Positions 4,733 to 60,199 of a DNA stretch of 64,000 nucleotides are shown here, piece after piece. The stretch is from Micromonospora sp. WMMA1947 (lineage in GTDB: Bacteria > Actinomycetota > Actinomycetes > Mycobacteriales > Micromonosporaceae): the NCBI RefSeq assembly GCF_027497355.1, contig NZ_CP114909.1:1054001-1118000 (forward strand). Direction: 5' to 3'. The first letter of the stretch is position 1; each line of letters starts with the position of its first letter. A program made the position numbers and the translations under genes. Below the pieces are notes generated by a model. It searched no databases, was not told the origin of the DNA, and saw only the letters and a list, made by a program, of their open reading frames with translations.

Positions 4733-4799
4733 AGCGTTGATCAAGGAGTTTGTGTCCCCCTCACACCTCCATCGCCACACAAACCCCTTGATCAACGCT
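4733..4799. repeat. 67-bp intergenic inverted repeat (GTTGATCAAGG family)
   Basis: Two 23-bp arms, 4733-4755 (begins AGCGTTGATCAAGGAGTTTG) and 4777-4799 (ends CCTTGATCAACGCT), are reverse complements with one mismatch, around a 21-bp loop. No T-run follows. It lies in the 322-bp gap between two minus-strand genes; the gap otherwise holds only the next two features. Confidence 0.9.
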
Positions 4800-4854
4800 C
4801 TCAGGCAGCCGTGAGGTGCTCGGCAGGCGAGGGCGGGTCGGGCAGGTGCACCCG

Positions 4855-4925
4855 GCGATCTTGCGGTTGCTGCCCGGGCGAGTGGGGCATTTGCGACACC
4901 ACACGGGCCGGAAGTGCAAGATCGC
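4855..4925. repeat. 71-bp palindromic element, copy 1 (GATCTTGC family)
   Basis: The arms GCGATCTTGCGGTT (4855-4868) and AAGTGCAAGATCGC (4912-4925) pair at 12 of 14 positions. The whole unit, interior included, clearly resembles the element at 38442-38513. It sits directly downstream of mazG (minus strand), ahead of a G-rich tract. Confidence 0.88.
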
Positions 4926-4955
4926 GGGGGAAGGGGGGCGGGGACGCGCGGGGGG
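4926..4955 (+). other. G-quadruplex-capable tract next to mazG stop
   Basis: Four G-runs of 4-6 bases separated by 2, 1 and 6 bases fill this stretch and end exactly at the TCA that is the mazG stop codon on the minus strand. The G-rich strand is the template for mazG transcription. A second element-plus-G-tract arrangement occurs at 38442-38554. Confidence 0.7.
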
Positions 4956-5936
4956 TCAGGCGGGAGGGGTGCGTTCGGCGGCTCGGACTGCCTCGGCGTA
5001 CGCCAAGGTGGCTCGCCGGAGCGCGGCCTCCGGGTCGATGCCGGCCTGTCGGGCGGCGGCCACTGTGGCCAGCAGGCTCGCGCCGAGCCGGGCCTCCGGG
5101 TCCACCTGCGACTCGGCCAGCGGGGGCGGTACGGCCAGGCCGACCCGCCCGGCCCGGTCCAGGATCTTCGCGGCCAGCGACAGCGCGGGCTGGCTCAGCG
5201 CGATGCCGTCCAGCACCGACTCGCGGGTCTTCTCGGCCCGCTTGATCCGTTCCCAGTTCGCCTCGATCTCCTCGATCGAGCCGGCCGGCTCACCCGAGAA
5301 CACATGTGGGTTGCGCCGCACCATCTTGTCGACCAGGGTGCCCGCGACGTCGTCGACGGTCCAGCTCTTGCCCTCCGGCAGGTTCTCCGCCAGCCGGGCG
5401 TGCAGCAGCACCTGGAGCAGCACGTCGCCCAGTTCCTCGCGGAGCGCGTCGGTGTCGTCGGCGCTGATCGCGTCGTACGCCTCGTAGCACTCCTCGAGCA
5501 GGAAACCGGCCAGGGTGCGGTGGGTCTGCGCCCGTTTCCACGGGTCGCCGCCCGGGGAGGCCAGCCGGTCCATCACCTCGACCGCGTCGAGCAGCCGGGC
5601 GCCGGGCGGATCCCACGAGCCGTACATCAGCTCCAGTTCGGCCAGGCCGGGCTCGCGGGCCAGCCGCAGCCCCAGCTCGCGGGCCAGCGACTCGTCGCCG
5701 GCCGGGCCGGCCAGCCACACCGCGCCGCCGTGCGCGGCCGCGGCGTCGAGCAGCGCCTGGGTCGCGCCCTCGGTCACCACGCTCACCTCGGCGCCGGCCG
5801 TCCGGACCGCCCGGGTCAGCTCGCTCTCCGCACCGGCGAGCACAGGCGCGGAGCGTACGGCGTCCCAGGCGGCCGAGGTCAGCAGGCCGGCGGGCAGCCG
5901 GGGCGAGGTGACGAGCAGGACGATGCGGGCGGTCAT
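4956..5936 (-). CDS. mazG: MazG family nucleoside triphosphate pyrophosphohydrolase
   Basis: Predicted to hydrolyse non-canonical or damaged (d)NTPs to monophosphates, protecting the nucleotide pool. The 326-residue length is close to M. tuberculosis MazG. The first ~110 residues form an N-terminal domain starting MTARIVLLVTSP. The catalytic all-alpha part follows, with EECYEAYDAI, LREELGDVLLQVLLHARLA and the later HVFSG and ANWERIKRAEK segments. Its ATG at 5936 overlaps the stop of the SurA-like lipoprotein gene (ATGA), so the two are translationally coupled. A longer frame upstream overlaps that gene and is not supported. Confidence 0.95.
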   Translation of the reverse strand: MTARIVLLVTSPRLPAGLLTSAAWDAVRSAPVLAGAESELTRAVRTAGAEVSVVTEGATQALLDAAAAHGGAVWLAGPAGDESLARELGLRLAREPGLAELELMYGSWDPPGARLLDAVEVMDRLASPGGDPWKRAQTHRTLAGFLLEECYEAYDAISADDTDALREELGDVLLQVLLHARLAENLPEGKSWTVDDVAGTLVDKMVRRNPHVFSGEPAGSIEEIEANWERIKRAEKTRESVLDGIALSQPALSLAAKILDRAGRVGLAVPPPLAESQVDPEARLGASLLATVAAARQAGIDPEAALRRATLAYAEAVRAAERTPPA

Positions 5937-16814: not shown

Positions 16815-16859
16815 AAGGGCCCCCTCTTAACGCCTAGTGCATAAGAGGGGGCCCTTTTT
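16815..16859 (+). terminator. Rho-independent-type terminator after ppc, built from a dispersed repeat
   Basis: Perfect 15-bp stem (AAGGGCCCCCTCTTA at 16815 with its complement ending at 16856), 12-base loop, then a short T-run. Both arms resemble the GTTAAC-GGGGCCCTTCC units near birA at 45847-45897. Confidence 0.85.
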
Positions 16860-25453: not shown

Positions 25454-25454
25454 C

Positions 25455-25486
25455 GGTGGGGTTCGGCGATCGCGCCGAACCCCACC
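25455..25486. terminator. Bidirectional terminator, xseB / convergent lipoprotein
   Basis: Perfect 14-bp stem GGTGGGGTTCGGCG with a 4-base loop. It lies between convergent stops at 25453 and 25494. Confidence 0.88.
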
Positions 25487-25493
25487 GCAGAGG

Positions 25494-37581: not shown

Positions 37582-38406
37582 GTGCCGCCGTTGAATCTGG
37601 GCAACCAGCAGCCGAAGACCCCGCTGAACGCGGAGCACGCCTGGCGTGCGACCGCCGCCCGCGCGGGTGACGTCGTCCTCTTCTTCGACTTCGACGGCAC
37701 CTTGGCGCCCGTCGACGACGACCCCACGGCCGTACGGCCCGCGCCCAACGTGCTCACCGCGCTGGAGGCGCTCGCCCCGCACGTCCGCCGGATCGCCATC
37801 GTCTCCGCCCGCCCGGTGGACTTCCTCCGCGACCACCTCGGCGGCCTCGCCGGCATCGACCTGTACGGGCTCTACGGCCTGGAGCACAGCCACTCCGGCG
37901 GTGAGACGGTCACCGAGCCGGCCGCCCTGCCGTGGGTGCCGACCATGTCCGAGCTGGCCGAGCAGGCCCGTGCTGAACTGCCGCCCGGCGCACTGGTCGA
38001 ATACAAGCGGCTCTCCGTCGCGCTGCACTGGCGTACCGCCCCGCAGCTCGGCGGCCTGGTGCAGGAGTGGGGCCGGGCGCAGGCCGAGCGGCTGGGCCTG
38101 CGCGCCCAGCCGGGCCGGATGGTGCTGGAACTGAAGCCCCCAGTCGACCGGGACAAGGGCATGGTGATCGGCGAGACGGTCCGGGACGCCGGTGGCGCCT
38201 GGTACTTCGGTGACGACGTCTCCGACATCAAGGCGTTCGCCGCGCTGCGCGCCCGCGCCGCCGACGATCCCGACTTCATCGGTGTCTGCGTCGCGGTCGC
38301 CAACCCGGAGACGGGTCACGAGGTGGCCGACGCCGCCGACCTGACGCTGGACTCCCCCGCGGCCCTGGCCGACTTCCTCACCGCCGCCCTCCCCCACCTC
38401 CGCTGA
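37582..38406 (+). CDS. otsB: Trehalose-6-phosphate phosphatase
   Basis: Makes trehalose from trehalose 6-phosphate. The 274 residues are of the HAD fold: motif I DFDGTLAPVDDDP with Asp36 and Asp38, SARPVDFLRDHL, GLYGLEHSHSGG, LELKPPVDRDKG, and motif IV GDDVSDIKAF. GTG 37582. No otsA is adjacent in the window, so the synthase must lie elsewhere. A 72-bp palindromic element separates it from the convergent prenyl synthase. Confidence 0.94.
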   Translation: MPPLNLGNQQPKTPLNAEHAWRATAARAGDVVLFFDFDGTLAPVDDDPTAVRPAPNVLTALEALAPHVRRIAIVSARPVDFLRDHLGGLAGIDLYGLYGLEHSHSGGETVTEPAALPWVPTMSELAEQARAELPPGALVEYKRLSVALHWRTAPQLGGLVQEWGRAQAERLGLRAQPGRMVLELKPPVDRDKGMVIGETVRDAGGAWYFGDDVSDIKAFAALRARAADDPDFIGVCVAVANPETGHEVADAADLTLDSPAALADFLTAALPHLR

Positions 38407-38441
38407 CGCCCCCGGCCCCGCCCCCGAGGCCCGACCTCTCC

Positions 38442-38513
38442 GCGATCTTGCACTTGCCGCCCCGGCAAAAGGGGGCATAAGCCGCGCCCTCGGGGCCGAA
38501 AGTGCAAGATCGC
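38442..38513. repeat. 72-bp palindromic element, copy 2 (GATCTTGC family)
   Basis: Perfect 14-bp arms GCGATCTTGCACTT (38442-38455) and its complement (38500-38513). The interior aligns with that of the copy at 4855-4925. It lies between convergent otsB and the prenyl synthase. Confidence 0.92.
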
Positions 38514-38519
38514 CGAGGC

Positions 38520-38554
38520 GGGGCGGGGCGGGGCAAGGGGGCGTGGCGAGGGGG
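38520..38554 (+). other. G-quadruplex-capable tract next to prenyl synthase stop
   Basis: GGGGCGGGGCGGGG, then two more G-runs, the last directly touching the TCA that is the stop codon of the minus-strand gene. Same order (element, G-tract, stop) as at 4855-4958. Confidence 0.75.
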
Positions 38555-39325
38555 TCAGGTGCCGAAGCGGCGCTGGCGGGTGGCGTAGGAGCGCAGGGCA
38601 CGCAGGAAGTCGACCTTGCGGAAGTCGGGCCAGTTCAGCTCGCAGAAGTAGAACTCCGAGTGCGCGCTCTGCCAGAGCATGAAACCGGAGAGCCGCTGCT
38701 CGCCGCTGGTCCGGATGATCAGATCCGGGTCCGGCAGCCCCTTCGTGTAGAGGTGCTCGGAGATGTGGTCGACGTCGAGCGAGGTGGCCAGCTCCTCGAT
38801 CGTGCCGCCGCTCGCCGCGTGCTCCACCAGCAGCGAGCGGACCGCGTCGGCGATCTCACGCCGGCCGCCGTACCCGACCGCGATGTTGACCTGAGCCCCG
38901 CCGTCGCGGTCGCGGGTGCGTTCCTCGGCGGCCTTGAGCGCGGCGGCGTGCTGCGCCGGCAGTACGTCGAGCGCACCGACCATCCGCAGCCGCCAGGGGT
39001 TGCCCTCCTCGGCCAGCTCGGTGGTGAGGTCCTCGATGATCTGAAGCAGCGGGTCCAGCTCGGCGGCCGGGCGGGAGAGGTTGTCGGTGGAGAGCAGCCA
39101 GAGCGTGACGTGCCCGACGCCGGCCGCGTCGCACCAGCGGAGCAGCTCCTTGATCCGTTCGGCGCCCATCCGGTGGCCGTCGTTCGGGTCGACGAAGCCC
39201 ATCTCCCGGGCCCATCTGCGGTTGCCGTCGCACATCACGCCGACGTGTGCGGGTACGGGCTTGCCCGCGAGCTTCGCCGTCAGCCGGCGCTCGTACACGG
39301 AGTAGAGGAGTTTCCGCAGAGTCAT
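38555..39325 (-). CDS. Cis-prenyl diphosphate synthase, probably short-chain (Rv1086-like)
   Basis: 256 residues of the UppS fold. Conserved: VMCDGNRRWAREMG (P-loop-like motif), LLSTDNLSRP, VNIAVGYGGRREI, and RTSGEQRLSGFMLWQSAHSE. The variant CDGNRRWA and overall length match what I recall of M. tuberculosis Rv1086, which makes Z,E-farnesyl diphosphate, rather than the long-chain UppS. So its product is probably a short prenyl diphosphate that primes polyprenyl carriers. ATG 39325; a GTG lies one codon before. AAGG is the only ribosome-site trace. Confidence 0.88.
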   Translation of the reverse strand: MTLRKLLYSVYERRLTAKLAGKPVPAHVGVMCDGNRRWAREMGFVDPNDGHRMGAERIKELLRWCDAAGVGHVTLWLLSTDNLSRPAAELDPLLQIIEDLTTELAEEGNPWRLRMVGALDVLPAQHAAALKAAEERTRDRDGGAQVNIAVGYGGRREIADAVRSLLVEHAASGGTIEELATSLDVDHISEHLYTKGLPDPDLIIRTSGEQRLSGFMLWQSAHSEFYFCELNWPDFRKVDFLRALRSYATRQRRFGT

Positions 39326-39356
39326 CACCTTGCAGGGTAGCGACCCGCGGGAGAGA

Positions 39357-40517: not shown

Positions 40518-40558
40518 CCCCTCATCCTGCCCCGCCGCGCCCAGCCCCGGGCGACGAT

Positions 40559-40607
40559 CATGAGGTTGACGGCATCAACGGAGATCGAAATCGCCGCCAA
40601 CTTCATG
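40559..40607. repeat. 49-bp imperfect inverted repeat (CATGAGGTTG family)
   Basis: CATGAGGTTGACGGC (40559-40573) and GCCGCCAACTTCATG (40593-40607) pair with two mismatches. It fills the gap between two minus-strand genes. Confidence 0.75.
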
Positions 40608-40608
40608 G

Positions 40609-41466
40609 TCAACGGGGTGGGGTGGGGGTGCGGGTGGCTCGGTGCAGGGACCAGAGGGTCAGGGCGGCGGCCGTGACCAGGGGGGCGCCGTCGCGGATCA
40701 GGCCGTCGGTGCCGAGCAGCCACCAGCACAGCGGCAGGTCGATCGCGAGGACGCCGAGGGTGACGACCACCAGGGCCTTCCGCGCCCACGCCTTGTCGCG
40801 CAGCAGGAAGGCGGTGCAGAACAGCACGGCGTAGCTGACCGCGATGCCCGCGCCGAACCAGAAGATCACTGCTGGTACGGCGGCCAGCCGTCCGTCCAGC
40901 ACGGCACCGGTCGCCACCAGCGCCGGCACCAGCATCAGCGGGCTGTAGGTGAACGCCGCGACCCGGGCGGTGAGCAGCCAGCCGTTCGCCTGCGGGCGCT
41001 TCGGCGCCATCTCCCGCCAGGCGATCGTCCCGCCCTCGACGACCAGGCCCTTGCGGTGCCGGACCAGGTGGGCGCGGATCGCCTCGGAGCGGTACAGCAG
41101 CACCACCACGGCGACGCAGAGCGCGGTGAGCACGGCGAACCCGACCAGGCCGGGCAGCGCGGGCACCCCCTGCCGGGGCACGATCAGCCGCCCGACCGCG
41201 AAGATCGTGGTCACCGCCAGGATCAGCCCGAACGGCCGGGCGCCCACCCGGCCCTTGTTCACGTGGCCGATCAGCAGCAGGAAGCCGAGCGACCGGAGCA
41301 TCGCCCAGCCGGTGCGTACGGCCAGACCGAACTCCTGCTCCGGGGCGTACCAGTAGTTGAGCAGCTCGACCACGACGGTGGCCGCCGCGGTCACGGCGAG
41401 CAGCGTGGTGAGCGCCCGGACGGCGGACGGCCGCCGGCCCTCGACAGGTTCAGCGGCCGTCCTCAT
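40609..41466 (-). CDS. Multi-pass membrane protein of unknown function
   Basis: 285 residues with about eight hydrophobic segments and short loops (first helix about 18-37; others end near 280). No transporter or enzyme motif recognised. The C-terminus is basic and proline-rich. Starts at ATG 41466. The end of the gene is a G-rich stretch on the plus strand. It lies between the flavoprotein and pckG genes on the same strand. Confidence 0.7.
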   Translation of the reverse strand: MRTAAEPVEGRRPSAVRALTTLLAVTAAATVVVELLNYWYAPEQEFGLAVRTGWAMLRSLGFLLLIGHVNKGRVGARPFGLILAVTTIFAVGRLIVPRQGVPALPGLVGFAVLTALCVAVVVLLYRSEAIRAHLVRHRKGLVVEGGTIAWREMAPKRPQANGWLLTARVAAFTYSPLMLVPALVATGAVLDGRLAAVPAVIFWFGAGIAVSYAVLFCTAFLLRDKAWARKALVVVTLGVLAIDLPLCWWLLGTDGLIRDGAPLVTAAALTLWSLHRATRTPTPPR

Positions 41467-48434: not shown

Positions 48435-48466
48435 GGTGCCCCCGCCGGTTCAGCGGCGGGGGCACC
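48435..48466 (+). terminator. Terminator after carboxylase beta gene
   Basis: GGTGCCCCCGCCG and CGGCGGGGGCACC form a perfect 13-bp stem with a 6-base loop. Shared with the convergent anti-sigma gene. Confidence 0.88.
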
Positions 48467-57074: not shown

Positions 57075-57104
57075 GACGGCCCGCCGGCGAACCGGCGGGC
57101 CGTC
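57075..57104 (+). terminator. Terminator after the kinase gene
   Basis: GACGGCCCGCCGG and CCGGCGGGCCGTC form a perfect 13-bp stem with a 4-base loop. The 180 bp that follow up to the next stop hold nothing else I can identify. Confidence 0.88.
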
Positions 57105-60168: not shown

Positions 60169-60199
60169 GCGGGACCGCCTCGTCTCGGGGCGGTCCCGC
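60169..60199 (+). terminator. Terminator after GH25 gene
   Basis: GCGGGACCGCC and GGCGGTCCCGC form a perfect 11-bp stem, 9-base loop, just before the stop of the convergent small gene. Confidence 0.85.

Follow-up and report, generated by a model that had tools for sequence, protein, structure and literature searches.

Two palindromes in a 64,000-nt stretch of the Micromonospora sp. WMMA1947 chromosome (hereafter the window) belong to a family of fixed-length palindromes ending in GATC on both sides, which we read, with a probability of roughly 0.45, as dispersed DNA signals, kept mostly by vertical descent, that would mark gene ends in both directions and be read by a protein. The elements are neither one-off structures nor dead repeats, their tips and spacing being kept in place. 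A preliminary description, made from the window alone, had located the two palindromes at 38442-38513 and 4855-4925, and these coordinates are confirmed, both running in full from GCGATC to GATCGC. It had also noted at each a G-quadruplex-capable run leading into the stop codon of a minus-strand gene, which holds for both (38520-38541, then the stop at 38555; 4926-4955, then the stop at 4956), and the naming of these genes as prenyl synthase and mazG agrees with the Pfam Prenyltransf and MazG domains that they carry (Table 1). The statement that the element occurs twice is right for type-a copies in the window but not for the genome, where 63 exact-arm copies were found, and the window itself also contains related palindromes at 4739-4793 and 40556-40613, the latter a degenerate copy whose counterpart is intact in Micromonospora tulbaghiae (locus L128). 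The genes flanking the 38444 copy are convergent. Those flanking the 4857 copy are on the same strand; this copy follows the mazG stop at a distance of 32 nt and precedes the start of the next gene by 223 nt, and its other side is only 29% C (4824-4854), unlike the C-rich tract (38407-38441) at the 38444 copy. Elsewhere in the window, a 15-bp perfect hairpin with a short T-run (16815-16856) lies between convergent genes, has no GATC arms and resembles a canonical intrinsic terminator; further perfect hairpins without GATC arms stand in convergent gaps at 25454-25487, 48435-48466, 57075-57104 and 60169-60199.

Table 1. Coordinates of the palindromes, their flanking tracts and neighbouring genes in the window, and of the IS110-family insertions in the genome
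Feature	Position	Strand	Details
Type-d palindrome	4739..4793	+	55 nt, GATCAAGGAGTTTGTG...CCCCTTGATC; shares its gap with the 4857 copy
Type-a palindrome core	4857..4923	+	67 nt
G-rich tract with G-quadruplex motif	4926..4955	+	Reaches the mazG-like stop
MazG-domain gene	4956..5936	-	PF03819; stop (4956) 32 nt from the 4857 core
Trehalose-phosphatase gene	37582..38406	+	PF02358; ends before the 38444 element
C-rich tract	38407..38441	+	66% C; between otsB-like stop and palindrome; G-rich outward on the minus strand
Type-a palindrome core	38444..38511	+	68 nt, GATCTTGCACTT...AAGTGCAAGATC
G-rich tract	38514..38554	+	71% G; G-quadruplex motif 38520-38541; reaches the uppS-like stop
Undecaprenyl diphosphate synthase gene	38555..39328	-	PF01255 (Prenyltransf); convergent partner; stop at 38555
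Degenerate type-c copy	40556..40613	-	Left GATC = GACC
IS110-family element at type-a arm	G000 C1: 965841, 1478601, 3554898, 5462977		Loci L059, L063, L087, L111

The search of the full genome and of other Micromonospora genomes that the preliminary description had proposed was run with patterns of the arms. In this genome (G000, 6.31 Mb; G138, G136 and G212 denote relatives and L-numbers fetched loci), an exact 8-nt-arm pattern that permitted lengths of 56-86 nt matched 63 places and its reversed control none, so the resemblance of the two elements is not due to chance; among 50 copies drawn from these matches, lengths of 67, 68 and 69 nt occurred 36, 13 and 1 times, respectively. A search pattern limited to gaps of 20-50 missed the family, whose actual gap is 51-53. 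A covariance model trained on 36 copies of 67 nt, with at most 150 candidates scored and both strands counted, recovered at least about 90 distinct places, nearly all at full length. A looser superfamily pattern covering related arms matched 199 places in this genome and at least one place in 145 of the 151 genus genomes sampled (reversed control, 0 in each of the 151), with patchy counts of 0 to 216 per genome; all six genomes without a match are 5.1-5.9 Mb in size, and the majority may belong to Salinispora. Among the matches listed, lengths were nearly all 54-55 or 67-69 nt and the subtype arms varied by species, and an arm scan of G000 added a 48-nt class. With approximately 6,000 genes in the genome, an extrapolation from the 1,067 that we called in 1.12 Mb, about 200 copies mean that only a small fraction of gene ends can have an element, which counts against a gene-end signal. 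Among the open-licence papers searched, no title described the family. Three loci (L050 6182-6700, L074 5581-6097 and L057 6050-6565) share an array of four palindromes (b, a, c, d) of approximately 520-560 bp, the arrays being 88% and 76% identical. Related species have other GATC-tipped palindromes (GATCCGG..., GATCGAC...) of 74-75 nt (L148 8503, L150 9857, L154 8541, L158 8551, L172 8457 and L174 8251), several of them near the position that types c and d occupy in other species. At the contig end of G000, 11,580 of 11,580 bases repeat a stretch near the contig start (L048, L119), and the single contig seems to be an untrimmed circle with an overlap of about 15 kb.

The copies lie between genes and tend to lie at gene ends. 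The arm scan accepted a palindrome only if it had GATC at each end and if 10 or more of the 12 arm bases matched, and hence favours intact arms. In the fetched G000 stretches it found 148 palindromes: 119 clean-type intergenic copies, 4 clean-type copies inside called genes, 3 located at the edge of a stretch, 9 intergenic copies of mixed type and 13 other in-gene matches, which were excluded. Genes were called with our own codon-usage script trained on G000 and applied also to the other species, rather than taken from curated annotation. Copies mostly inside genes, which the preliminary description had named as one outcome that would tell against it, were not what we saw, as only 4 of the 126 clean-type copies fell in called genes and 119 were intergenic. 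Copies are enriched at convergent junctions and depleted between divergent genes: of the 119 intergenic copies (two of which, one a and one d, are counted twice through the contig-end overlap at L048 and L119), 56 lie in convergent, 50 in same-strand and 13 in divergent gaps, while convergent and divergent gaps make up 18% and 35% of the intergenic bases in the same stretches. These stretches were chosen around type-a model matches, so that the context percentages are not a random genome sample; in 8 extra stretches plus the window, the corresponding shares of intergenic bases were 17.5% and 41%. Within same-strand gaps, 39 of the 50 copies are nearer the upstream stop, and the nearest edge of the element lies a median of 40.5 nt behind the stop (116 gene ends with an element in the gap). 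The suggested location at gene 3' ends therefore stands as a tendency (56/119 convergent, 13/119 divergent, 39/50 nearer the upstream stop) and not as a universal rule, and the stop codon drops out as a fixed part of the module, since a nearby stop is common but not universal. At three loci (L064 6519, L068 6072 and L128 8719) a called stop codon overlaps the palindrome edge, and the element's own TGATC seems to supply the stop of the upstream gene.

Beyond the arms, the sequence on either side is rich in G in the outward direction for approximately 30-60 nt, somewhat shorter on sides facing gene starts. Of 122 type-a sides, 57 had an outward G-quadruplex motif no more than 60 nt away, so that fewer than half of the sides carry the strict motif, compared with 13 of 948 control ends that lack an element; the same motif on the opposite strand was found on 0 of the 122 sides. 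By side, the frequencies were 45/88 facing gene ends and 12/34 facing gene starts, against 10/350 and 3/598 in the respective controls. The G-tract belongs to the element, and palindrome plus G-tract is a real composite, in a stronger sense than first claimed because the outward tract is enriched on both sides, including those that face gene starts (12/34 vs 3/598). The same sides led us to reject the idea that the C/G tracts are a mere composition of 3' leaders, since they too are G-rich outward; they also count against a gene-end signal, as a pure terminator has no need of G-tracts facing gene starts. The layout recurs in other species, where the flanks of 43 intergenic elements from an 80-locus set have an outward G content of 62% and 36 of the 86 sides carry the motif within 40 nt. 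Read from the gene, the tract is a C-rich leader: when the element lay 40-150 nt off, 82% of convergent ends (n = 38) and 100% of same-strand ends (n = 12) had three or more C-tracts in the 40 nt that follow the stop. When the element began inside those 40 nt, the shares were 67% (n = 39) and 53% (n = 17), and at gene ends without an element they were 7%, 12%, 16% and 9%. In the 30 nt behind convergent stops with an element 40-150 nt away, base fractions were C 0.63 and G 0.21, vs C 0.41 and G 0.35-0.39 without one.

Conservation in place was measured against G138. Of the 61 type-a copies, 49 were aligned in place (64-99% identical), and for the other 12 the fetched stretches contained no orthologous interval; L119 was left out, and the G138 stretches were selected for holding copies, so that intact copies are favoured and wholly decayed ones could be missed. 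Across the 49 copies, the outer 8 arm bases were identical at 779 of 784 positions (99.4%) and arm positions 9-12 at 347 of 392, whereas the interior (1120/1436) and the 30-nt flanks (2280/2940) were both 78% identical. Both arms were unchanged in 45 of 49 copies, where about 2% would be expected at the interior rate, and core length stayed the same in 41 of 49. In the other types the arm effect was weaker (arm vs interior: long type b, 202/208 (0.97) vs 301/397 (0.76); 48-nt class, 165/176 (0.94) vs 80/110 (0.73); type c, 147/160 (0.92) vs 141/171 (0.83); type d, 160/176 (0.91) vs 125/183 (0.68)). The arms look selected on this pattern, and the part of the preliminary description that spoke of a selected module is well supported by it. 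Type-a arm identity was as high in same-strand (316/320) and divergent (63/64) as in convergent gaps (400/400), a constraint that a pure terminator does not need and that counts against a gene-end signal. It would suit instead a binding site of a chromosome-organising protein (an insulator, looping or nucleoid site) that is merely tolerated in gene ends, as would the paired half-sites at fixed spacing within symmetric flanks and the G-quadruplex-capable tracts pointing outward on both sides. We consider this reading quite improbable, because the 66 type-a places taken from the at most 150 scored candidates are unevenly spread on the chromosome, with the five largest gaps measuring 0.29-0.73 Mb, because presence differs between close relatives, and because 6 of the 151 genus genomes have no pattern match.

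How units come and go is visible at the uppS/otsB junction, the site of the 38444 copy, found in named relatives that are mostly Micromonospora, plus Salinispora, Plantactinospora and Verrucosispora. Across 30 genomes including G000, the arm scan scored 22 junctions as filled (gaps of 96-164 nt) and 8 as not (6-130 nt); on inspection the 130-nt gap, L228, held a decayed copy of the b kind, giving 23 filled and 7 empty junctions (gaps of 6-55 nt). The gap is 148 nt in G000 compared with 16 and 14 nt in G212 and G136, in which uppS is 97-98% identical, and C-tract, palindrome and G-tract are absent together from both. The three parts thus come and go as one cassette. With 7 of 30 close relatives lacking the unit, it is dispensable at this junction, another point against a gene-end signal. 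In 18 other type-a species, counted only after passing the arm scan, the arms at this junction matched G000 at 284 of 288 positions and the interior at 326 of 540; in still other species the slot is occupied by a type different from a, and the neighbouring upstream slot by c or d depending on the species.

Such turnover raises the possibility of a short, non-autonomous mobile palindrome of the REP or MITE kind, its arms read by an enzyme and gene ends serving as harmless places for insertion, an account that we regard as possible but doubtful. The gain or loss of a unit at one junction in close relatives (148 vs 16 and 14 nt), one slot holding differing subtypes in different species, the patchy counts of 0-216 per genome with species-dependent subtype arms among the matches listed, and the four-palindrome arrays at three loci all speak for it. 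However, flanking direct repeats around type-a copies showed no excess over shuffles that would indicate target duplication (best z 2.0, for 2 nt), and a search for PF01797 (Y1/RAYT) returned 0 matches and 0 candidates in either G000 or G138, both rich in copies, while the domain is present in 45 of 160 genus genomes; a RAYT was rejected as mobiliser on this ground. Copies also mostly stay put between G000 and G138 (within G138 stretches chosen around copies), and their arms are conserved in place while the interiors drift at the flank rate, which dead copies would not do. The 161-base query 38400-38560 had no match in plasmids or phages. A pattern scan of viral contigs returned at least 120 stretches, whose lengths, among the 80 matches listed, are scattered over 49-79, and they were therefore taken as chance matches. 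The original suggestion of mobility is thus upheld by presence and absence at the same junction and weakened by the lack of target duplications and of a PF01797 transposase, and by the 49 of 61 type-a copies that have an alignable copy in the orthologous G138 interval.

At least one mobile enzyme does recognise the arm. An IS110-family element, present in four copies genome-wide by its right-end 20-mer (up to 2 mismatches), abuts with its right end the GATC of a type-a arm (GATCTTGC) exactly in 4 of 4 copies, which shows that a mobile enzyme specifically targets the arm as DNA; both copies examined out of the four carry PF02371 and PF01548. IS110 relatives use REP palindromes and attC as targets, and the likeness here is that an IS110 element sits exactly at the arm (4/4), with the palindrome in G000 being the target and not part of the insertion sequence. 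This targeting leaves the purpose of the palindrome unshown. A second IS110-family element (L108, L067) lies within approximately 350 bp of other palindrome copies. MITEs have terminal inverted repeats and no coding capacity, and our elements resemble them in these two respects and in presence or absence between relatives, but differ in having no target duplication and in arms that are constrained in place while the interior drifts. REP and REPIN sequences (PMC2817692, PMC3733652) are short intergenic palindromes that number from tens to hundreds, commonly follow coding regions, form clusters and have species-specific variants; REP units are 20-40 bp with a GTAG or CGTC tag at one end, the GTAG class being tied to RAYT genes and the CGTC class apparently lacking a transposase. 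The elements described here are alike in being short intergenic palindromes of similar copy number, often behind coding regions, with clusters and species variants, but differ in their length of 48-69 nt, GATC at both ends, fixed spacing, outward G-tracts and the lack of PF01797 in the genome.

The internal structure of the element bears on whether it is read as DNA or as RNA. The type-a arm reads inward as GATCTTGC-R-N-TT-nnn-GCCC, and both ends of the element are GATC; in 36 type-a paralogs the outer eight positions were invariant, as the search pattern demanded, and positions 11-12 and 16-19 were strongly kept. Half-sites are almost always paired: in the G000 stretches, 108/111 (type a), 27/27, 30/30 and 32/32 of the four half-site kinds lay in palindromes, leaving 3 of 111 full type-a half-sites solitary, and in the G138 stretches the figures were 104/105, 29/29, 28/29 and 14/14. 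A DNA uptake sequence was rejected on these counts. Inverted uptake sequences serve as terminators in Neisseria and Haemophilus, which share with our elements an invariant arm, a free loop and a place at gene 3' ends, but here half-sites are hardly ever single and spacing is fixed.

An ordinary intrinsic terminator, its stem selected as RNA and the hairpin shared among copies by chance, is improbable, even though the hairpin is strong: in the first 40 of the 61 type-a copies the mean z was -5.6 for the core and -4.5 for the core with 35-nt flanks, the latter with a mean folding energy of -74.1 kcal/mol, and convergent gaps in the window hold the other perfect hairpins without GATC arms. No T-run follows the arms, T making up 0-14% at the first 12 outward positions in type a, so a plain U-tract terminator fails its defining test with the GC hairpin present and the T-run absent. 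Several stem pairs are usually broken (10-58, 13-55 and 15-53 unpaired in 21, 19 and 24 of 36 type-a paralogs), and the covariation along the stem that RNA selection leads one to expect was not found among these paralogs, 86.0% of cells being paired vs 86.7% after shuffling. A stem, moreover, requires neither an invariant 8-nt tip nor a fixed length, and Rfam assigned no family at gathering score in the window, the sub-threshold matches at 38380-38580 being mostly to miRNA models, that is, generic hairpins. The interior is asymmetric, and its orientation relative to gene direction was the same in 8 cases and opposite in 10; together with the lack of covariation in paralogs, this indifference makes reading as DNA more likely than reading as one RNA strand. 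Among 19 orthologs at the uppS site, some covariation was seen (9 pairs changed on both sides vs 4.2 after shuffling, with 0 of 500 shuffles as high, the sequences being related), and a role for the hairpin is therefore possible. Intrinsic terminators without a U-tract exist in actinobacteria, and the GC-rich hairpins at convergent ends are alike, but the near-invariant tips and the fixed length, common here across genera, set the present elements apart.

Beyond the genus, a loose pattern matched 34 of 394 genomes across the class, including G000 and two more genus genomes. Five genomes of family f22 had 8-56 matches and the remaining ones 0-3; family f2, of the same order, gave 1 match in total and family f21 none among the sampled genomes. 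In 20 f22 stretches from three genomes, fetched for holding matches, the copies were 65-67 nt long and, by our own count, 20 of 20 were intergenic, with a stop within 45 nt in 17 and convergent genes in 12; their flanks were 52% G outward, and a G-quadruplex motif was present within 40 nt on 5 of 40 sides. Their arms read GATCTTGGAGTT, one arm being GATCTTGGAATT in two copies, and the first twelve arm bases equal those of Micromonospora type b. The f22 copies repeat the Micromonospora layout, and relatives of the family exist in distant actinobacterial families.

RAYT-type mobility, uptake sequences and U-tract terminators having failed their tests, what is left is a DNA signal, putatively under selection, that sits at gene ends and is acquired or lost as one cassette, and judging from sequence the elements are probably a selected full stop between genes, read by a candidate protein. 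A sequence-specific protein, hypothetical at present, would bind both half-sites on duplex DNA and so form a symmetric block. Whichever gene it comes from, RNA polymerase would first make a C-rich, G-poor 3' leader, the kind on which Rho can load, and would next meet the bound palindrome, a very stable hairpin and the G-tract, so that transcription from both sides would end at the element and neither gene would be read in antisense. The need for protein binding would maintain the fixed spacing and the tips, while the tracts and the interior would need composition only. A bolder form of this proposal, which we put forward tentatively, is a dedicated two-way punctuation in which a candidate actinobacterial DNA-binding protein, or a small set of paralogs with one for each arm type and spacing class, might read the GATC-tipped pairs and, with the C-rich leaders, end transcription in both directions, the sites being gained and lost as entire cassettes that span the interval from one stop codon to the other.

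How transcription ends at convergent genes in high-GC actinobacteria without U-tract terminators is, to our knowledge, poorly settled. With known arms, a fixed spacing, natural pairs of presence and absence and a genome-wide list, the question of actinobacterial gene ends becomes directly testable, and the constant arms offer a bait with which to fish out the protein that reads them. The family also carries a warning that similar dispersed palindromes are not to be dismissed as junk repeats, as constraint in place can be measured on orthologs.
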